Of a stretch of 20,138 nucleotides of DNA, positions 2,382 through 19,120 are shown piece by piece. The notes under the pieces were generated by a model. It was not told where the DNA came from. It saw only the letters and a program-made list of their open reading frames with translations, and made no database searches. The DNA is from a virus. A program made the translations under genes and the position numbers. The stretch covers positions 1 to 20,138 of the IMG/VR virus record IMGVR_UViG_3300020122_000655; one strand, 5' to 3'. Each line of letters opens with the position of its first letter. Position 1 is the first letter of the stretch.

Positions 2382-2425
2382 GCGGATATTATTATAATGT
2401 TAGTGCGCAGGCGAATGTTATTTTG
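2382..2425. repeat. Repeat A, copy 2 (3' flank of primase)
   Basis: GCGGATATTATTATAATG then a GCGC-containing stretch and GAATGTTATTTT, matching 1880-1930 apart from small indels. It covers the last codon and stop of the primase and the DNA just downstream of them. Confidence 0.75.
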
Positions 2426-3440
2426 TGATTTCCATAATCCATTCTCTAATATTAAAATCTCGTTCAACGGCTTCGCCTATATCCTTGCCGATTGGCGTAG
2501 GATATGCAATAGAATGAGAATATAAGCGTTCCCACTTTTGGAACATTTTTTTTCCTGCTTCGTCATTGTCATGACAAATTAAAAGAGTTTTAGATTTTTT
2601 TGCTAAGTCATCAACAAGATAATTTGGATTTTTAAGATTACTTCCAACAGCAACAAAAAAAGCAATATCCCCAACACAATAATCTAAAACAAATTGATCC
2701 AACTCAGACTCAACAATAACCATAATTCTATTATTCAAATCACCAATTAAATTAAGCCCATTCATACTACCAGTAACTGCAATATATTTTGGAATACTGT
2801 CATTTTCGTTCCAATCAGTCCTTCGAATTTTTAAACGAGTTACATCTCCATTTAATTCAATTGATGGTATGACAATGCCTGCAGGTAACCAAAGTTTTTT
2901 TGTATTACCTTTCTCATCTTTTTCTTCAACTAATCCCCATGAAGATCTATCTCTAAAAATAGTATTAGGATTGTAACCAATCTTATATTTGATAATTGCA
3001 TCTTTTGGTAAACCACGTTTGTTTAAAAAAGTTAAAATATCTGAATATTTCCATACTTCTGCATGACACCATTCAACAAATACTTTCGCTTTATCTATCC
3101 ATTCTGCTGAAGGAGCAATTAATTTCACAGGCTTAAATTTATTTACTTTGTACTGCGGATAATTCAAATTAGTTTCAGAAATTTTAGCACCAACTCGTTG
3201 AACAGCTTCCTTAAAAGTATAACCAAGAAAATCTATGCAGAACTGAATTGAATCACCGCTGATTTCGCATTGCCTACATTTATAATAGCCAACACAATTT
3301 TTCATTCTGCGGTTAGGTTGAATAAAAAATCTGTCTTCACCTCCACAAGATGGACATTCAGAGCTATATTCTCCACCGTGTGTGCCAGCCTTCCATTTTG
3401 GATTGAGACCTATTTGACTTACCAATTCAAGAAGAATCAT
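2418..3440 (-). CDS. Phage/plasmid-type DNA primase (zinc finger plus Toprim)
   Basis: A 340-residue primase that would make RNA primers at the element's origin. The N-terminal zinc-binding domain has CPSC (Cys29, Cys32) and CRQC (Cys55, Cys58), as in CHC2-type primases, but with four Cys as probable ligands. The Toprim domain shows the catalytic Glu in VESELD (Glu244) and the metal-binding DND (291-293) in CHDNDEAGK. It is shorter than DnaG (about 600 residues) because no DnaB-interacting C-terminal domain is present, which is usual for phage and P4-like primases that pair with a separate helicase. That helicase is the next gene upstream. The ATG at 3440 has AAGGA 7-8 nt before it. The 3' end lies in repeat A. 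Confidence 0.88.
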   Translation of the reverse strand: MILLELVSQIGLNPKWKAGTHGGEYSSECPSCGGEDRFFIQPNRRMKNCVGYYKCRQCEISGDSIQFCIDFLGYTFKEAVQRVGAKISETNLNYPQYKVNKFKPVKLIAPSAEWIDKAKVFVEWCHAEVWKYSDILTFLNKRGLPKDAIIKYKIGYNPNTIFRDRSSWGLVEEKDEKGNTKKLWLPAGIVIPSIELNGDVTRLKIRRTDWNENDSIPKYIAVTGSMNGLNLIGDLNNRIMVIVESELDQFVLDYCVGDIAFFVAVGSNLKNPNYLVDDLAKKSKTLLICHDNDEAGKKMFQKWERLYSHSIAYPTPIGKDIGEAVERDFNIREWIMEITK

Positions 3441-3517
3441 ATTTTTTCCTTAAAAAAATTAACTTTCATTTAGTAAAGCAAAATTAAATTTACATTTTTA
3501 TAACAATTAATTTTTCT

Positions 3518-3535
3518 ACCCAGTCTACCTAGTCT
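3518..3535 (+). repeat. Origin inverted repeat, left arm
   Basis: ACCCAGTCTACCTAGTCT, exact reverse complement of 3671-3688, 135 bp apart. On the opposite strand it reads as two tandem 9-mers. Confidence 0.9.
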
Positions 3536-3553
3536 AAATAATAATGTTATACA

Positions 3554-3611
3554 ATTTGTATTATAATGCCTTTCTAATTTTTATTTGATATTACTTTTTT
3601 ATAATACAAAT
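3554..3611. repeat. Inner 13-bp inverted repeat in AT-rich core
   Basis: ATTTGTATTATAA (3554-3566) and TTATAATACAAAT (3599-3611) are exact reverse complements with a 32-nt spacer. They are nested inside the 18-bp outer repeat and could form a cruciform or a DNA-unwinding element. Confidence 0.8.
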
Positions 3612-3670
3612 ATTGAGCAATTTCTATATTAATCATTATCCAATCGATAATCCCAAGAAGTTGGGTGGGG

Positions 3671-3688
3671 AGACTAGGTAGACTGGGT
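3671..3688 (-). repeat. Origin inverted repeat, right arm
   Basis: AGACTAGGTAGACTGGGT, made of tandem 9-mers AGACTAGGT and AGACTGGGT, preceded by a G-rich stretch (GTTGGGTGGGG). Exact inverse of 3518-3535. Confidence 0.9.
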
Positions 3689-3753
3689 TAATTGTTTCAA
3701 TGGTAAGAAAAAATAGTTTTAAAAAACAATTTATCATATAAGCGCTTAAACAA

Positions 3754-3779
3754 CCCCGTCCTACCCCGCTGCCCACCCC
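3754..3779 (-). other. G-quadruplex-forming motif
   Basis: Plus-strand C-runs at 3754-3757, 3764-3767, 3772-3774 and 3776-3779 give four minus-strand G-runs of 3-4 with loops of 1, 4 and 6 nt, the canonical G4 pattern. Such G-rich DNA stands out in this AT-rich element. It lies 20 bp past the helicase stop codon and next to the candidate origin. Confidence 0.6.
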
Positions 3780-3799
3780 AAAATATTGAAATCAAGGAC

Positions 3800-5689
3800 T
3801 CAATCAGCACTTTGAGAGGATTTCCCGATTTTTAAAACTCTCCAACAAACACTTCCATGATCAAACCCATCAGTCTCTAAACGATAATTACCAATAATAT
3901 TATTTTTATATTCACGCATTTTTCTACCTAAATTTGTAGTATCGATTTCAAGTTCATTTTTACCTGGAGCTAAGCAAATAAAAGATTCTTTAAGTCTAGA
4001 ATGTTTATTTTCTTTATCAGGGTTTATAATAATAAATTTAATTGCTTTTTTTATTGGCATTGCTTTTGATTCAAAAACATCAAACCAACTTTCTAATAAA
4101 TTTGATATAGCAATCCTATTGGGGTCCTCGGCTTTAATCCTTTTTATACTATCGCATGGATTTGGTAATCCCAGCCAACAAAGTGCTGATGGAATAAGAT
4201 CACTCCAATCTTCAAAGCTACCGAGATTAACCTTGTTTGGACTACCAGCCTTTTTATAAGCAATCAATATTGTATAAATTGCTTTGATAATTTTAGATCT
4301 ATTTTCAATAACTTCAGTTTTAATATCAGGAAGTTTTCTGTTTTCTGGATTTTCAACATTAGCATCAATAATTGATAGTAAGGTTCGTCGTGGCATATCA
4401 CCTGAGATTATTAAATTATTCCCATTTGCAGAGATTGCTAAATTATTGATCAATGCATGATTTTCATTAACTCCTAATTTTCTGCCTTGAAAATATTCTG
4501 CAGTAACAAGACTGGAAATTATTGAACTAGAAAAATCTTTATCAATATTATCATAATTAATAATTTGATCGCCAGCCATTAAAGATGAGAATAATCTTTT
4601 TTCATCTTCCGCTTCATTACCAGTATAAGCCATGACAGCACAACGTTTGCCCGTTATAATTAATGAAACTAAATCGCTTATTAAAGTTTTTCCAGTTCCA
4701 GGCATTGGAGAAGAAAAACAATTGATAGGCACTGTAGGTAGGGCTTTGCGCGCAGCAACTGTTAAAATCCAAGATATGGCTATAGATTCACTAAGTGGAT
4801 TTTCAAAAGGGAAATCTCTAAATATATTTTTCAATATTTTTAATGATTCAATAGCATCTTCTTTAGTTGGATTATCTGGAATTTTCTCAAAATTATTATT
4901 TTCTGATATAAATAACAGTCCTGTATCAGGATCGTAACCTGGTTCATCAAAAATAGTTCCGTCAGGGCGCATTGTTGGGGCATTAACAAAACCATTTAAA
5001 ACTCTTAGTTTGTTATGTGGTCTTGATATTAAATGTTTTGCTATTTTCTCAGGGCAATTGTCTATTACTTTAATAGAATCACTTCTACCATCATATTTTG
5101 ACCATGATGCTAACCTTGTTAATATTTCGGTCAAATATAAATGGTCTATTATTGTAATAACATAAGGATCTTCATATCTCTTTATTTTGTCTTTTTTTAC
5201 TTTGGGAATTGATGATATTTTTACTACACAAACTAATTTTCTACATCTTTGATAAATATTAGTGGCTTTTTCAATTAATAATTCCTCTGCAGTATCAACA
5301 AGTGATGATATGCTTGAGCCGATAAAAATAGAATTAGCTTTCTTAAAAAAAATTTCTATTTCTTTATATAGCTTATGGATATCTTCTTTTAGTTCCATTA
5401 ATGTTTCAGCTGTAGCCTGAGACAATTTTGAATTTGGTTCAAAATTAGAATTTATAAGATCATCAAAATTATTTATAAACTTGTTTTGATTATGTGAGCT
5501 TAATGCATTATTGATGTTATCAATTCGTTTGATTAATGCATATTTTTCTTTGTCTAATATTGGCCATGATTCCTCTGGAATATATTTATATTTAATATCA
5601 TTCAATTCTTGTAAAATATTATTATTAATTTCTACTTCAAATTCGTTTCTTGATATTTGTTTTGGTGGTATTATTGTTATGTCATTCAT
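3800..5689 (-). CDS. Phage AAA+/SF3-like replicative helicase
   Basis: A 629-residue P-loop ATPase. The N-terminal ~220 residues are helical and unassigned. A segment around residues 225-260 (RVLNGFVNAPTMRPDG, then GYDPDTGLLF) is a signature I associate with phage and mobile-element helicase or primase-helicase proteins. The ATPase domain has Walker A PMPGTGKT (328-335), Walker B-like IINYDNID (376-383), a sensor-1-type NGNN and a conserved PRR that may supply the arginine finger. Together with the separate primase downstream this gives a split primase plus helicase. The ATG at 5689 has AAGGA 8 nt upstream. It lies 64 bp after the SF2 helicase gene in the same leftward operon, with a hairpin in the gap. 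Replicative helicase is the likely role; the exact family is not certain. Confidence 0.75.
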   Translation of the reverse strand: MNDITIIPPKQISRNEFEVEINNNILQELNDIKYKYIPEESWPILDKEKYALIKRIDNINNALSSHNQNKFINNFDDLINSNFEPNSKLSQATAETLMELKEDIHKLYKEIEIFFKKANSIFIGSSISSLVDTAEELLIEKATNIYQRCRKLVCVVKISSIPKVKKDKIKRYEDPYVITIIDHLYLTEILTRLASWSKYDGRSDSIKVIDNCPEKIAKHLISRPHNKLRVLNGFVNAPTMRPDGTIFDEPGYDPDTGLLFISENNNFEKIPDNPTKEDAIESLKILKNIFRDFPFENPLSESIAISWILTVAARKALPTVPINCFSSPMPGTGKTLISDLVSLIITGKRCAVMAYTGNEAEDEKRLFSSLMAGDQIINYDNIDKDFSSSIISSLVTAEYFQGRKLGVNENHALINNLAISANGNNLIISGDMPRRTLLSIIDANVENPENRKLPDIKTEVIENRSKIIKAIYTILIAYKKAGSPNKVNLGSFEDWSDLIPSALCWLGLPNPCDSIKRIKAEDPNRIAISNLLESWFDVFESKAMPIKKAIKFIIINPDKENKHSRLKESFICLAPGKNELEIDTTNLGRKMREYKNNIIGNYRLETDGFDHGSVCWRVLKIGKSSQSAD

Positions 5690-5753: not shown

Positions 5754-7403
5754 CTAATTACTTTTTATTAGAAAATCTATAATTACCGATGCTTGGCCTT
5801 TTGATAAGTGATCAAGACCACTGCGGTATCTAAATTTATGCAAAGTATTAATTTGCCCTTCGGATATTGGCTCATTGTTCCAAGCAGCATTTTTATCGCT
5901 TAAAATAAATAATCGTCTATTCTCTTTTGCAAAAGTATCAGCTGCAGCGAATGCATAATCGAAACTTAAATTCTGAGCAATAATTTCAATAGAATTCTTT
6001 TTATCGAAAACAACTGAGAATCTTTCATTTTCGGGGATGATTTTTAAATAACAATCTTTGGATGATTTTAGGGCATAACCGCTTGTTTGCTTTTCCCATT
6101 TAAATTCTTCAGAAAGCAAATTTATATTTCTTTTTAGTGCTGACTTAAGTTTTGGATTTAAATTTCGCGGTAATGATTGAATAAATTCTAGTTGAGCTTT
6201 TTCCTTTTGAATTTGCTTAATATTTTTTGCATCTTCAAGTAATAATGTAACTGAAGATAACTCATGTGTTTTTGAGGAGAAATCTAAAATTAAAGCGTCA
6301 TCTTTTTTAGGATATAATCTGAGAGCGCGTCCGCACATTTGCATAAAAAGACCTATGGACTGCGTAGGTCTAGCAATAATTACACAAGATGTTTGAGGTG
6401 CATCAAATCCCTCAGTCAAAACACTGCAATTACATAAAGCTTCTATATCACCATTAGCATATCTTCCCAAAACTTCTTCACGATCTGCTTTTGGCATATC
6501 ACCATAAATTACATCTGCTTTGATATTGTTTTCATTAAAACATTTAGATAAGTTAATTGCATGTTTAACAGTACATCCGAATGCTATAGTTTTTCTACCT
6601 CTACCATTCTGTAAATATGAATCAACAACTAACTGATGCATATCAGGAGTATCTAAAACTTCTGCTAAACTTGCTGCTTCAAAATCACCACCTGTAGTTT
6701 GAACAGCAGAAAGATCTAAATCATTTAAAATTTTTATAGCTTTAGGCTCAACCAACCAACTATCTTCAATCATTTGTTTTATTGAACGTTCATATGCTAT
6801 ATATTCGAAGACTTCACCTAAACCATACTTGCTTTTATACCTGAATGGAGTTGCAGTAAATCCACATAATAATTTTTCATTGGATATATTTTTATCAAAA
6901 CCTAAATTAGTTAAAACTCTGCGAGCAGAAAGAGTTGCATAATGATGTGCTTCATCGCAAATAATTAATTTTATATTAGCTTTAATTAGTTCTACTAAAT
7001 TATTATCCCTAATTGCTGATTGAATTGAACATACGATAATGTCTTTATCGAACTCTTTGCAATCTTGATTAACAACTCCAACATCAGCATTAGGAGAAAT
7101 CATTTTTATTTTATCTACTGCTTGTTGCTGTAATTCATTTGTATGAACTAAAACTAAAGTTTTTTGACCAAATTCTTCAATTAAATGTGAAAATATAACT
7201 GTCTTACCTGCAGCTACAGGCAATGAAATTATTTGTCTGTTTTTACCTTCTTTAAATAGTTTAAAAATATTATTAATACATTCTTGCTGATAATCTCTTA
7301 ATGGTAATTGTTTGTTAAAATTATTGTTAATGATATTATTTGATAATTCAATTTTATTGCCCATTGGATTTGGTTGGTCTGATGGGCTCATCATTTTTAA
7401 CAT
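5754..7403 (-). CDS. SF2 DEAH-type helicase (RAD25/UvsW-like), copy 1
   Basis: A 549-residue DNA helicase or translocase. The motifs in order are a Q-motif-like LRDYQQECI (35-43), Walker A LPVAAGKT (61-68), DEAH (150-153), FTATP (182-186), a motif V region NCSVLTEGFD and motif VI QMCGRALR (355-362). A C-terminal extension (about 430-549) ends in a small domain with GQINTLHKF ... SKGQASVIIDFLI that also closes the paralogue at 11635-13158. I chose ATG 7403 because AAAGGA sits 7 nt upstream and the preceding gene stops 4 bp away; the longer frame from 7499 would overlap that gene. UvsW-like helicases act in origin remodelling and recombination-dependent phage replication, so a replication role here is inferred from family and operon. 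It sits between the AlpA-like regulator and the AAA+ helicase. Confidence 0.88.
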   Translation of the reverse strand: MLKMMSPSDQPNPMGNKIELSNNIINNNFNKQLPLRDYQQECINNIFKLFKEGKNRQIISLPVAAGKTVIFSHLIEEFGQKTLVLVHTNELQQQAVDKIKMISPNADVGVVNQDCKEFDKDIIVCSIQSAIRDNNLVELIKANIKLIICDEAHHYATLSARRVLTNLGFDKNISNEKLLCGFTATPFRYKSKYGLGEVFEYIAYERSIKQMIEDSWLVEPKAIKILNDLDLSAVQTTGGDFEAASLAEVLDTPDMHQLVVDSYLQNGRGRKTIAFGCTVKHAINLSKCFNENNIKADVIYGDMPKADREEVLGRYANGDIEALCNCSVLTEGFDAPQTSCVIIARPTQSIGLFMQMCGRALRLYPKKDDALILDFSSKTHELSSVTLLLEDAKNIKQIQKEKAQLEFIQSLPRNLNPKLKSALKRNINLLSEEFKWEKQTSGYALKSSKDCYLKIIPENERFSVVFDKKNSIEIIAQNLSFDYAFAAADTFAKENRRLFILSDKNAAWNNEPISEGQINTLHKFRYRSGLDHLSKGQASVIIDFLIKSN

Positions 7404-7407
7404 AATC

Positions 7408-7638
7408 TTATCCTTTAGATGAATTTGTTGAACCCTGAGCCATTCTTGCATTAATGAAATTGACGAGAGATGTTTTGGGATAAAGATATTTCCTGCCAAT
7501 TTTTAGATAATCTGGATGATCTATCTTACGCTTTCTACTTATAAAGACAGCCTCGCGACTTTTAAAAAGTCCGAGCTGGACTAAATGCTCTGCATTCAAT
7601 AAATCTGGATAAGATTGTAGCAATTCTGTATTTGTCAT
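7408..7638 (-). CDS. AlpA/excisionase-like HTH DNA-binding protein
   Basis: A 76-residue protein, MTNTELLQSYPDLLNAEHLV onward. The pattern of a helix with LLNAEHLVQLGLFKS, then basic RKRKIDHPDYLKIGRKYLYP and a closing helix, is the MerR-like winged HTH of AlpA and excisionase proteins (helix-turn-helix followed by an R-x-x-ly hairpin). Relatives activate integrase or satellite excision genes or repress their own operon. GAGG lies about 7 nt before ATG 7638. It is the first gene of the leftward replication operon, 4 bp before the SF2 helicase. Three ATGTACAT palindromes lie 45-103 bp upstream, which makes it the best candidate to bind them. That link is inference. Confidence 0.7.
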   Translation of the reverse strand: MTNTELLQSYPDLLNAEHLVQLGLFKSREAVFISRKRKIDHPDYLKIGRKYLYPKTSLVNFINARMAQGSTNSSKG

Positions 7639-11634: not shown

Positions 11635-13158
11635 ATGCAGCTACGTGATTATCAACAAGAATGTATAAATAAAATTAAAGAAAGTTTTTTAAAGGGCAAA
11701 AATTCCCTGCTAATAAATCTTCCGACCGGATCAGGAAAAACCAAAATTTTCTGTCATTATATTATTGAGTTAAATTTAAGAACATTAATCTTAGTTCCTA
11801 CGATCGAATTAATTTATCAAACAATACAAACATTACATTCAATCAATACGGAATTAAAAATTGGAATAGTGAACAAGGACAATAAAGATTTTTATCGGAA
11901 GATCGTTATTTCTACGTATGCAGCTGCGAAGATTGAATTAAACGAAAGAAGATTAATTCATCAAGATTTTTCTTGTTTAATTGCAGATGAAGCGCATCTA
12001 GCTAATTCTGAAGGCTGCAATCAATTGTTCCAAAGATTGGGATTCGGCGAAAATATTTCTTCTGCAAAAATCTTGATTGGATTCTCTGCGACTATATTCC
12101 CGGCGTTATACGAAAGATTCAAAACACTAGTATTTCAAAAAAGTATAAAAGAATTAGTTGAAGGAAACTTTCTTGTAAAGCCTGTAGGCTATAAAATTCT
12201 TAACAATATTGATCTATCTCAAGTTGCAATTCAAGATGGAGATTTTGTTGAATGTAGTCTATCCCAAGTAGTAGATACGCCTTTCTTTACGAATATGATT
12301 GTAGATTCTTGGCTTAAGAAAGTTAAGAATAAACGTACTTTAGTTTTTACACTAAATGTACAAGCCGCCATCAATCTGGCCAAAACATTTCGGACTCGTG
12401 GAATAGCAGCACAATGTGTTCACGCAGATACTCCAGATGAATTACGCGCTGAGATTTTGAATGATTTTAGAAATGGATCATTGAAAGTTATAACCAACTG
12501 CAATGTTTTTGCGACCGGCCTGGATATTCCGGAAACCGAATGTATCATTCCTTCTATTACATTGAGCCGAGTTCGATGGACACAACAAGTAGGGCGAGGA
12601 CTAAGAAAATGCGATTATATAAATAAATCTGAATGTATAATCTTCGATTTTAATTCTAGGAACTATGGACTTCATAATACGCAATCTTTGGAAAATGTTA
12701 CGCCACGAATAAACAATAGAAAAAAATATTTAAAAGAATTACCCAAAAAGCTAAATATTGTTTTGAAAGAAGCTTATATCGAGTATGTAGTTTTACATGT
12801 GGACTTACTGAATACTGATTTTTTTTGGTATAAGAAAAAAAATATATTCTATGTAAAAGGCATATTGAATTCAAAACTTGAAGTAATCGCTGGGCTATCT
12901 GGATATACAGTTATTTATTATGATTCATATTCTTTTAAAACACTTGCTGACGGATTGAGTTTTGAAGATGCATTTAAAGTTGCAGAAAATTTTCTTAGAC
13001 AGAATTACACATATTTTACAGATTCAGACAAATCAAAACATAAAGACAAACCAATAACTAATGAGCAAAAGAGTTTCTTTGAGAATCAGGAATATTATGA
13101 TGGCGTTGATGATTTAACATCATATCAGGCACAGGCAATTATATGTATGTTAATTTAG
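11635..13158 (+). CDS. SF2 DEAH-type helicase (RAD25/UvsW-like), copy 2
   Basis: A 507-residue paralogue of the 5754-7403 protein. Motifs: LRDYQQECI (3-11), Walker A LPTGSGKT (29-36), DEAH (118-121), SAT (151-153), motif V region NCNVFATGLDIPET and motif VI QQVGRGLR (317-324). The C-terminal tail (ITNEQKSFFENQ ... SYQAQAIICML) corresponds to the closing domain of copy 1. Copy 2 has the standard GSGKT P-loop whereas copy 1 has AAGKT. The proteins align nearly end to end, apart from copy 1's N-terminal extension, but have diverged widely, so duplication is old or they were acquired separately. There is no strong ribosome binding site before ATG 11635. Located next to Xer and before the virion genes, it may serve recombination or replication during the lytic phase; this is inference. 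Confidence 0.88.
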   Translation: MQLRDYQQECINKIKESFLKGKNSLLINLPTGSGKTKIFCHYIIELNLRTLILVPTIELIYQTIQTLHSINTELKIGIVNKDNKDFYRKIVISTYAAAKIELNERRLIHQDFSCLIADEAHLANSEGCNQLFQRLGFGENISSAKILIGFSATIFPALYERFKTLVFQKSIKELVEGNFLVKPVGYKILNNIDLSQVAIQDGDFVECSLSQVVDTPFFTNMIVDSWLKKVKNKRTLVFTLNVQAAINLAKTFRTRGIAAQCVHADTPDELRAEILNDFRNGSLKVITNCNVFATGLDIPETECIIPSITLSRVRWTQQVGRGLRKCDYINKSECIIFDFNSRNYGLHNTQSLENVTPRINNRKKYLKELPKKLNIVLKEAYIEYVVLHVDLLNTDFFWYKKKNIFYVKGILNSKLEVIAGLSGYTVIYYDSYSFKTLADGLSFEDAFKVAENFLRQNYTYFTDSDKSKHKDKPITNEQKSFFENQEYYDGVDDLTSYQAQAIICMLI

Positions 13159-13291: not shown

Positions 13292-15661
13292 ATGGCTTTC
13301 GATAGATTTTTAATATCAAATTATTCTACCGGATTACAAAAAGACAAAAAACCATGGAAAATCATGGATGATGCATTCGAGCTACTCAAGAATGCTTATA
13401 TTTTTCGGGGACGAGTTAGAAAAAGATTCGGATCTTATTTGATGGGACCGACAAGAAGCAATCCCCTAACTTCAAGATTAAGAATTAATATAGGAAATAC
13501 TCCTGGGCCACTTAATATTCCAGGAACTGCAACCAATACATTATTACAAGTAGGTCAAATATTCTCAGTAGGTAGTGATATTTTTACCGTCTATCAATTA
13601 GGCGCAAACGTAGCAACTTTAGCAACTAATGGTGCAACTTCAGCGACAATAAATAGCACTGTTAATCCAAACACAGTAACGATAGTTGGCGAACCCGGAG
13701 GTACAGCTGTATATTGGTATCCATCATTTCCTGTTATGGGATTGACCCAATATGAAAGTGGCGCGATTAATGATTATCCTTCATATGCATTTGATCCCTA
13801 TTTTGCTTATGTATTTATTCAAGCAACGGGTTGGGTCCGTTCAGGAACGGGAACAGCACCATTATGGAACGGACAACTAGATACAACATTTATGAATTTT
13901 TTCTGGGTAGCAAACTGGAAGGGCATTATACCTTCTCCTGGATCAGGCTCAGGTGCAAACATAGTCACAATGTTTGTAACTAACTTTCAAGTAACAAATA
14001 AAAATGGAGTAGGTGCCGCAACTGATGATCCAATTTGGTTCACATCTGATGGAAATACATGGACTAAAGCAAGTGGAGCAAATGGATTTTATTTTTTGCC
14101 AGGCGGTGGTGCGCCACAAACGGGACCTTTTGTTCAAACCGCAAGAATTATTGTGCCCTTTCGAAATAGATTAATTTTATTAAATACCATAGAAAATGAT
14201 AATTCCGGAGGCTCAGGTGTTAACTCATGGTATTCTCAAAGGTGTAGATATTCATTTAATGGAAATCCTTTCGCAGTTAATGCTTGGTATGAACCGGGAC
14301 AAAGCGATAATGCGGGACTTGCTAATAGTAATGCAGCTGGTGCAGGTTTTATTGACGCATCTACTGACGAACAGATAATATCTGCCGAATTCATAAAAGA
14401 TCGATTAATAGTTTACTTTGAACGGAGCACATGGGAATTATCTTATACTGGCAATGAACAACTTCCATTTATTTGGAACAAATTAAATACCGAATTAGGA
14501 TCACAATCAACCTTTTCAACTGTTCCATTCGACAAAGCAGTCTTAACAATCGGTAATACTGGTGTACATTCTTGTAATGGATCTAATGTTGAACGAATTG
14601 ACCAAATAATTCCTGATGAAATATTTAATTTTGTAATAAAGAACAATAATGCTGTTCGTATAGCAGGCGTCAGAGATTACAGAGCTGAAATGGTTTATTG
14701 GGCAGTTCCTTATGACGACAAAGCTTCTACACAAACATTTCCAAATCGTATATTGGTTTATAACTATAGAACGCCTTCATGGTCATATAATGATGATACA
14801 TTTACAGCTTTTGGATATTTTGAACAATCATCGGATGTAACTTGGCAATCTTTGACAATGACATGGGCTGAAAATAATGATACATGGGAAAGCAATGTTA
14901 CGCCCGCGCAACAAATTCAGATCCTTGCTGGTAATCAAGAAGGATTTGTTGTAATTATAGATCCGACAGAAACGTCTACAAATTCGCAATCATTACAAAT
15001 TACAAATTTAACTAATAATGGCGCAACTATAAATTTAAATGTAATTAATCATAATCTATCAGCAAGCAATCCATCATCTGATGGAGATTGGGTTGCAGTC
15101 TATAATTCCGGAATGACAAATTTTGATGTTAATTATTTAACAAAAATGGGTATTTACCCGGTGGTTTCTGTTATAGATGCAAACAATATAACTATTCAAT
15201 TAAAGGCGGGACAAGTTGTTAGTGGAACTTACAATGGCGGCGGAACATTGGCACGAGTATCAAACATACAAATGCAATCTAAACAATGGAATCCATATGA
15301 CAAAGAAGATAGAAATGTGTATCTCCAAAGAATTGATTTTGCGGTACAGAAAACAACATCTGGTCAAATAACAGTAGATTATTGGCCATCGTCATCGGAA
15401 GTATCAATGTTACAATCAGGAACCGCAATAATGGGAACAGGTATATTAGAAACAACTCCATACAATCCAGTTTTTTATCCACTTGAACAAGCACAAACAA
15501 GATTATGGCATCCATTGTATTTTCAATCTGATGGAGAATGCATACAGCTAGACATTTATTTATCTGATGCGCAAATGGCAGATCCAAACATTGCATTTAG
15601 TGATTTTGAATTAGAGGCAATGCTGTTATTTGTAGAAAGAACGACGTCATATTTACAATAA
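13292..15661 (+). CDS. Phage tail protein, P22 gp10-like (tail hub/stabilisation) candidate
   Basis: A 789-residue protein rich in Gly, Asn, Thr and aromatic residues, with beta-strand patterning throughout and no signal peptide. The opening GLQKDKKPWKIMDDAFELLK and NAYIFRGRVRKRFGS is typical of phage proteins that list a fixed 'particle' to be read, as in P22 gp10-type tail accessory factors. The order of later blocks also parallels gp10 from memory: a FIKDRLIVYFERSTWEL block (367-381), IGNTGVHSCNGSNVERID (419-436), then a RILVYNYRTPSWSYND block (485-500). Gp10 closes the portal channel after packaging and connects to the tail needle. Length is greater than P22 gp10 (about 470 residues) owing to inserted and C-terminal beta domains. 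The start has only a weak AGAAAG upstream. The next gene follows after 68 bp. Confidence 0.55.
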   Translation: MAFDRFLISNYSTGLQKDKKPWKIMDDAFELLKNAYIFRGRVRKRFGSYLMGPTRSNPLTSRLRINIGNTPGPLNIPGTATNTLLQVGQIFSVGSDIFTVYQLGANVATLATNGATSATINSTVNPNTVTIVGEPGGTAVYWYPSFPVMGLTQYESGAINDYPSYAFDPYFAYVFIQATGWVRSGTGTAPLWNGQLDTTFMNFFWVANWKGIIPSPGSGSGANIVTMFVTNFQVTNKNGVGAATDDPIWFTSDGNTWTKASGANGFYFLPGGGAPQTGPFVQTARIIVPFRNRLILLNTIENDNSGGSGVNSWYSQRCRYSFNGNPFAVNAWYEPGQSDNAGLANSNAAGAGFIDASTDEQIISAEFIKDRLIVYFERSTWELSYTGNEQLPFIWNKLNTELGSQSTFSTVPFDKAVLTIGNTGVHSCNGSNVERIDQIIPDEIFNFVIKNNNAVRIAGVRDYRAEMVYWAVPYDDKASTQTFPNRILVYNYRTPSWSYNDDTFTAFGYFEQSSDVTWQSLTMTWAENNDTWESNVTPAQQIQILAGNQEGFVVIIDPTETSTNSQSLQITNLTNNGATINLNVINHNLSASNPSSDGDWVAVYNSGMTNFDVNYLTKMGIYPVVSVIDANNITIQLKAGQVVSGTYNGGGTLARVSNIQMQSKQWNPYDKEDRNVYLQRIDFAVQKTTSGQITVDYWPSSSEVSMLQSGTAIMGTGILETTPYNPVFYPLEQAQTRLWHPLYFQSDGECIQLDIYLSDAQMADPNIAFSDFELEAMLLFVERTTSYLQ

Positions 15662-18468: not shown

Positions 18469-18786
18469 TTATTTTTTTGACAGCTCATAGGGCTCAACAG
18501 TAAGCCTTAGTCCTACATTCTTTAAGATTGATTTCAATTTTGTGTAAGTTGGATTTCCTCGTTTGGAAAAGATTCGATAAAGATGTTCTCTATTTATTTT
18601 TGCATCCTCTGCCAATTGAGAGATGTTCTCACCTTGTGCGCTAAGAACTTGTTTTAAAGCTAATAGAAAAATTCTTTCATCTTCGTCATTCATTGATTCT
18701 TTAAGATATGCCAATGCAAATTTATTATCTTTTAGCTGTTCATTTAAAAAATCATCATATTTTAAATGTCTTCTTTTTTTATTCAT
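18469..18786 (-). CDS. higA: HigA-like (HI1420-family) antitoxin
   Basis: A 105-residue HTH antitoxin. The N-terminal part (KYDDFLNEQLKDNKFALAYL) is the toxin-contacting region. The HTH follows: ALKQVLSAQGENISQLAEDA, then INREHLYRIFSKRGNPTYTK, and a C-terminal LKNVGLRLTVEP, which is characteristic of the 'probable addiction module antidote' group. It neutralises the upstream toxin and represses the operon, most likely at the palindrome 19129-19146. GGAG is found 7-8 nt before ATG 18786, inside the toxin gene; the 8-bp overlap implies coupled translation. Confidence 0.88.
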   Translation of the reverse strand: MNKKRRHLKYDDFLNEQLKDNKFALAYLKESMNDEDERIFLLALKQVLSAQGENISQLAEDAKINREHLYRIFSKRGNPTYTKLKSILKNVGLRLTVEPYELSKK

Positions 18787-19120
18787 ATTCTTTCTCCAAT
18801 CCCCTATAATCTTGCCAATATTTTTTTGCTTTCTCTATATCGCGCTGTTGGCTTTTTTTCTCCCCAGCACAAAGTAATATCACTATTGTTTGTTTCTCTT
18901 TTGCAAAATAAATTCTATATCCCGGTCCATAATCTATTACTAGTTCCCAAATACCTTTAGCAGATTTGATTGGTTTACAATCACCAAAATTTCCGAGAAC
19001 AACACGGTTGATTCTTTTTGTGAATATTGCTTTTTCCTGCTCATCAAACTCTAGAAACCACTCTTTATATGGTATTTTGCCGGAAGGTAATTCATATAAA
19101 ATAACTTTTATTAATCCCAT
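18779..19120 (-). CDS. higB: HigB/RelE-superfamily (HI1419-family) toxin
   Basis: A 113-residue toxin of the Gp49-like/'addiction module killer protein' group, expected to cut mRNA on the ribosome. Diagnostic segments: LPSGKIPYKEWF, INRVVLGNFGDCKPI, IWELVIDYGPGYRIYF and LLCAGEKKSQQRDIEKAKKYW. The conserved basic and aromatic residues (Arg and Tyr of GPGYRIYF, Lys pair of EKKSQQ) are intact, so it should be active. Toxin precedes antitoxin, the usual order in this family. It has no ribosome binding site: the predicted transcription start falls on or next to the ATG. The module would stabilise the element in the host population. Confidence 0.9.
   Translation of the reverse strand: MGLIKVILYELPSGKIPYKEWFLEFDEQEKAIFTKRINRVVLGNFGDCKPIKSAKGIWELVIDYGPGYRIYFAKEKQTIVILLCAGEKKSQQRDIEKAKKYWQDYRGLEKEYE

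Follow-up and report, generated by a model that had tools for sequence, protein, structure and literature searches.

In a virus-derived stretch of DNA a gene for a predicted initiator helicase is separated from a gene for a primase by a short gap that is rich in repeats, and the question is whether this gap is an origin of replication and, if so, which of its elements would do the work. The analysed window is the whole 20,138-base IMG/VR virus record. An earlier note on the same DNA had proposed an origin made of nested inverted repeats plus a G-quadruplex (G4) motif, located between helicase and primase, and the gap 3441-3799 indeed separates both genes. The features to which we refer are the following:

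3800-5689, minus strand: gene for a predicted D5/SF3-type AAA+ initiator helicase (629 aa; PHROG_29234, E 4e-91)
3441-3799: intergenic gap, 359 bp, 73% AT, flanked by two minus-strand genes
3753-3779, minus strand: cluster 1, a G-rich and apparently degenerate iteron array that coincides with the G4 motif, 21-47 nt past the helicase stop
3690-3752, no strand: AT-rich core and candidate melting site, 63 nt, 79% AT, its layout taken from comparison with relatives
3663-3689, plus strand: cluster 2, iterons AGACTAGG/TAGACTGGG at 3671-3688 plus a GGGTGGGG extension, inverted with respect to cluster 1
3599-3611, plus strand: arm of the inner 13-bp dyad on the side of cluster 2, from the inverted-repeat search and shuffles
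3554-3566, plus strand: arm of the inner 13-bp dyad on the side of cluster 3, from the same search and shuffles
3518-3535, minus strand: cluster 3, which repeats cluster 2 exactly in inverted form and points the same way as cluster 1
2418-3440, minus strand: gene for a DnaG-like primase with zinc ribbon and TOPRIM (PF08273, PF01807, PF13155; phrog_849, E 3e-23)

The gap begins directly at the helicase stop (3800), a placement that is the same in relatives, and the primase gene is the next one past the candidate origin. Clusters 2 and 3 together form the outer dyad of the earlier note, a perfect 18-bp inverted repeat (ACCCAGTCTACCTAGTCT, 3518-3535 / 3671-3688) with arms 135 nt apart. Each arm holds a pair of 9-mers, of TAGACTAGG and TAGACTGGG type, that are almost absent from the rest of the window even when one mismatch is allowed. 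Both the dyad and its iteron-like 9-mers are found where they had been placed, and in 2000 dinucleotide shuffles the intergenic region never gave an inverted repeat of 18 bp. The inner dyad (3554-3566 / 3599-3611, arms 32 nt apart) is likewise present, although it is nested relative to clusters 2 and 3 only; it is modestly above chance, a repeat of at least 13 bp occurring in 28/2000 dinucleotide shuffles. The AT content is 68% in the window, 79% in the core between clusters 1 and 2 and 77% in the interval between clusters 2 and 3. An Rfam search gave no match, and the GC skew across the window, a check that had been suggested before, tracks gene direction and leaves 3.6 kb unmarked.

Origin regions of helicase relatives

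The comparison covered 80 IMG/VR viral loci from an alignment-based scan together with plasmid and phage loci. These were picked by similarity of the helicase and not by repeats, so that the survey of repeats is not circular; several loci share metagenomes, and redundancy was reduced only by discarding near-identical origins. In most relatives the helicase stop is followed directly by two to three iterons of ~9 bp, an AT-richer core and the iterons again in inverted orientation. For instance, locus L032 (an Azospirillum plasmid) carries three copies of AGTGGGTTT followed 63 nt on by three inverted copies, L054 carries three copies of AGTGGGGTC plus three inverted ones, and L082, L049, L065, L081, L085, L098 and L099 have a similar layout. 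The median spacer of the relatives is 84 nt, with 50% AT in the core versus 40% in the flank, and a few of them (L063, L077, L059 and L068) have more than two clusters.

The arrays are far more frequent behind the helicase gene than elsewhere. In a strict test that scored 7-mers clustered in both orientations, a score of at least 4 was reached by 36 of 61 non-redundant loci versus 4 of 347 control segments drawn at random from the same loci, while 17 of the 61 had no array in this test. The window itself remains at just 3, since the 7-mer that scores best belongs to the inner dyad and the 250-nt span does not reach cluster 3. Perfect inverted repeats of at least 12 bp were found just behind the stop in 23/54 loci (p about 1e-13), and in controls in 0/54 inside the 3' end of the gene and in 1/48 at +1200.

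The sequence of the iterons varies among loci and agrees between the arms of each locus, which suggests that the arms are sites of one cognate protein. Since helicase relatives that share just ~30% protein identity with the window's helicase have inverted iteron arrays directly 3' of its gene, the comparison supports well both the origin candidate and the paired initiator binding that had been put forward for the dyads. With inverted iterons and an AT-rich core behind the helicase in the relatives, the most fitting interpretation of the gap is an origin of the SaPI/PICI kind that the helicase would recognise, and we consider it very probable that it is the replication origin of a phage- or plasmid-like element. 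IMG/VR single-protein scans with helicase and primase returned no relative above ~35% protein identity and an exact scan found the 18-bp arm absent from IMG/VR, so the window's arms lack verification by orthologues; at the DNA level, searches among plasmids and phages yielded just AT-rich chance matches.

Could the gap be regulatory and no origin, that is, an operator of the primase, a terminator of the helicase operon or a partition site? It is intergenic, the flanking genes are co-oriented, autorepression by the helicase is possible and the element carries a parA-like gene. This latter gene is ~3.2 kb off, however, and has a 15-bp dyad of its own, a terminator and promoter scan of the gap revealed neither a terminator-like hairpin nor a promoter excess above chance, and the relatives keep their arrays while the genes downstream vary, all of which makes a purely regulatory gap quite improbable.

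A structural origin similar to that of pRN1, in which a large stem-loop or cruciform with an 18-bp stem would be recognised as a structure and the iterons would be irrelevant, also appears improbable. The single-strand DNA fold of the gap exceeds that of shuffles in stability (z -3.7) and includes the 18-bp stem, and for pRN1 and phage BIP-1 origins with stem-loops 3' of the PrimPol-helicase gene have been proposed (PMC4234260). Nevertheless, the arms of many relatives consist of 2-3 tandem 9-bp units that a structural stem would not need, and several arms match by repeat yet are not perfectly collinear. A stable fold is expected of any long inverted repeat and thus does not single out a cruciform; the two cruciforms envisaged before are not needed, and nothing specific backs them.

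Inner dyads are not peculiar to the window. The core of 14/58 loci contains TGTCA...TGACA (shuffles: mean 1.1, maximum 4), so that nested dyads recur among the relatives of the helicase; the inner dyad of the window is a different one. We also observed in the core of many relatives' origins, no more than 150 nt behind the helicase stop, a conserved GTTTCA.CC...CGCG.GAAACTGTCAG plus inverted TGACAGTTT (loci L031, L032, L049, L051, L053 and L076), possibly the site of a second factor. This core motif (GTTTCA...CGCG.GAAA.TGTCA) was not found in the window, and a position-weight model detected no site in the gap.

The G-rich stretch and the pairing of the clusters

The G4 motif (GGGGTGGGCAGCGGGGTAGGACGGGG, minus strand, 3754-3779, 26 nt, loops of 1, 4 and 6) is the only one in the window, and none of 200 whole-window shuffles has any, in agreement with the view that such a motif is unlikely to arise by chance here. 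The further idea that it stalls or primes synthesis fared less well. Of the 44 relatives whose arms are clear, just one (L082) carries a G4 motif at this position, and because the motif is not conserved the mechanism is unsupported; with G-rich iterons explaining the motif, we regard an action of the G4 itself in initiation or fork stalling as highly improbable despite its uniqueness in the window.

Because G-rich iterons are usual at this place (36/44 loci have a proximal arm rich in G on the helicase strand), the stretch is better read as a degenerate iteron array. Cluster 1 occupies the position of the left array of the relatives and is G-rich on the helicase strand; it includes GACGGGGT, one mismatch off the iteron GACTGGGT, and its alignment to the inverted cluster 2 extends across 28 gapped columns and is equalled by 7/2000 shuffles. 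Together with its flank it aligns to the relatives' arrays better than 200 of 200 shuffles, the best match being the array of L054 (GTGGGGTCAGTGGGGTCAGTGGGGTCGTTTCAGCGCT versus GTGGGCAGCGGGGTAGGACGGGGTTGTTTAAGCGCT). Judged on these similarities, the G4 motif is most likely a worn G-rich iteron array and no structural device.

Its position, G-richness and alignments thus point to clusters 1 and 2 as the most likely canonical unit, and on balance we favour a unit that would consist of cluster 1, the 63-nt core and cluster 2. The inner dyad falls outside this stretch from G4 to cluster 2, which is the counterpart of the relatives' origin. It is possible, though doubtful, that the working pair is instead formed by clusters 2 and 3, with the inner dyad within the melting zone and the G4 stretch unrelated to the iterons. 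These two clusters are the perfect 18-bp copies, and the 135 nt that separate them are 77% AT. C-rich proximal arms do occur in 6/44 relatives, and arms start as far as ~80-100 nt past the stop in L030, L029, L077 and L059. The orientation of such a pair would, however, be opposite to that in 36/44 relatives, and it would leave out a cluster 1 that lies in the usual place, is like the inverse of cluster 2 and resembles the relatives' arrays (0/200 shuffles). If clusters 1 and 2 are the unit, cluster 3 probably serves as an additional site for docking or copy control.

The helicase and a possible course of initiation

No Pfam or NCBIfam model matches the helicase (3800-5689), and its match to PHROG_29234 spans positions 363-871 of the profile only. 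An AF2 model built on 55 relatives (mean pLDDT 81) gave Foldseek PDB matches to NrS-1 CTR (5e-11), SaPI5 PriRep1 (5e-8) and mpox E5 (2e-7), and ASFV PrimPol was also matched. The protein has the Walker A motif PMPGTGKT, with K334 invariant across 55 sequences, and by its modelled fold it is a D5/SF3-type AAA+ initiator helicase. A fused N-terminal PrimPol domain, the mark of the pRN1 type, is not recognisable in it: the N-terminal 170 aa are mainly low-confidence helices without a Pfam match. The related proteins of plasmids are frequently longer, with annotations as primase-type fusions.

The C-terminal 100 residues are modelled confidently as helices followed by a beta hairpin, compatible with a small winged-helix domain, and a PDB structure search with this domain gave no confident match. 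Binding of the iterons via the C-terminal domain, as in origins of the PICI/SaPI type, is putative here. Co-variation with the iterons is no stronger for the C-terminal domain than for the core (partial rho 0.12 versus 0.21) and therefore does not pin down the recognition domain.

From the observed repeats, gene identities and layout conserved in relatives, and from the analogy to experimentally tested origins, we infer a possible course of events. The helicase would dock on the 9-bp iterons of clusters 1 and 2, in opposite orientations on either side of the AT-rich core, two helicase rings would be loaded face to face and melt the core, and priming of the forks of a bidirectional start would fall to the DnaG-like primase, the product of the downstream gene.

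The element and known replication systems

The contig ends (1-240 and 19771-20138, minus strand) apparently encode the N-terminal and the C-terminal portion of a single ParA-like ATPase (AAA_31 positions 35-101; CbiA 56-123), which suggests that the element is circular, about 20.3 kb, and that its sequence was cut within parA and lacks roughly 130 nt. A perfect 15-bp inverted repeat with a 7-nt loop (GTTACTGTCATATTG, 352-388), a candidate operator or parS, lies just upstream of this gene; it has ACTGTCA in common with the inner dyad that some relatives have in their origins. Other features of the element are two paralogous SF2 (ResIII/DEAD) helicases on opposite strands (5754-7499, minus, and 11635-13158, plus; 35% identical), a tandem duplication of a small gene and flanking DNA (1092-1565 and 1922-2227, minus; blocks of 71-91% identity) of which the second copy is truncated, a toxin-antitoxin pair with a Gp49/HigB-like toxin and an HTH antitoxin (18469-19120, minus) and a large protein (13292-15661, plus) with relatives of 46-75% identity in 22 viral contigs. 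The replication module of the window is absent from the fetched DNA of these 22 contigs.

The family-wide pattern is the interesting part of these findings. It is plausible, although short of probable, that phages, prophages and plasmids share a widespread and so far unnamed replicon type, in which one D5-like helicase family lacking a Pfam model is combined with a self-contained origin directly behind its gene, made of inverted arrays of fast-changing 9-bp iterons and, in some lineages, an inner TGTCA...TGACA dyad. Dozens of unannotated phage and plasmid contigs would gain a predicted origin and initiator, and the rule for finding the origin is simple: inverted 9-bp iterons right behind the helicase stop. 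The natural matched pairs of helicase and iterons open origin recognition by D5/SF3-type proteins to study by cognate-pair swaps, and a seemingly exotic G4 claim is removed.

The closest parallels are found among SaPIs and Gram-negative PICIs, where the origin lies directly 3' of rep and always has two iteron sets around an AT-rich region, and where rep and ori drive plasmid replication (PMC6092414). The gap shares these traits, namely two iteron sets, an AT-rich middle and a position 3' of a gene for a hexameric initiator helicase (PMC6092414, PMC7581432), and the predicted fold of the window's helicase appears related to that of SaPI5 PriRep1. The window differs in the helicase family (PHROG_29234, without a Pfam model), in the separate DnaG-like primase past the origin and in having three clusters. 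We do not claim the 20-kb element as a PICI, as a comparison of gene content showed that it also carries the parA ends, the toxin-antitoxin pair and the large protein typical of viral contigs. The origin of SCCmec Cch2 likewise has repeats 3' of the helicase gene, and both SaPI Rep and Cch2 recognise their repeats via the C-terminal domain (PMC7581432); unlike the window, it involves another helicase family and three 5-nt direct repeats.

Plasmid pRN1 depends on an inverted-repeat element of 100 bp that lies 3' of the gene for its PrimPol-helicase (PMC4234260; PMC3869888), and pRN1 and phage BIP-1 resemble the window in having such an element just 3' of an SF3 helicase gene (PMC4234260). The pRN1 element, however, has been described as an iteron-free stem-loop, and no PrimPol domain is recognisable in the window's helicase. 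Phage P4 differs from the window in that its two sites lie apart and its primase and helicase are fused. By description, its alpha/ori-crr system is nevertheless similar in combining an SF3-type helicase, cognate repeats and a TOPRIM-type primase (in part from PMC4234260). A phage-derived origin of Bartonella was set aside, because it is described as being of the lambda-like type and lying inside a gene. The kind of origin proposed here is already known, and its layout is common to dozens of distant phages and plasmids.
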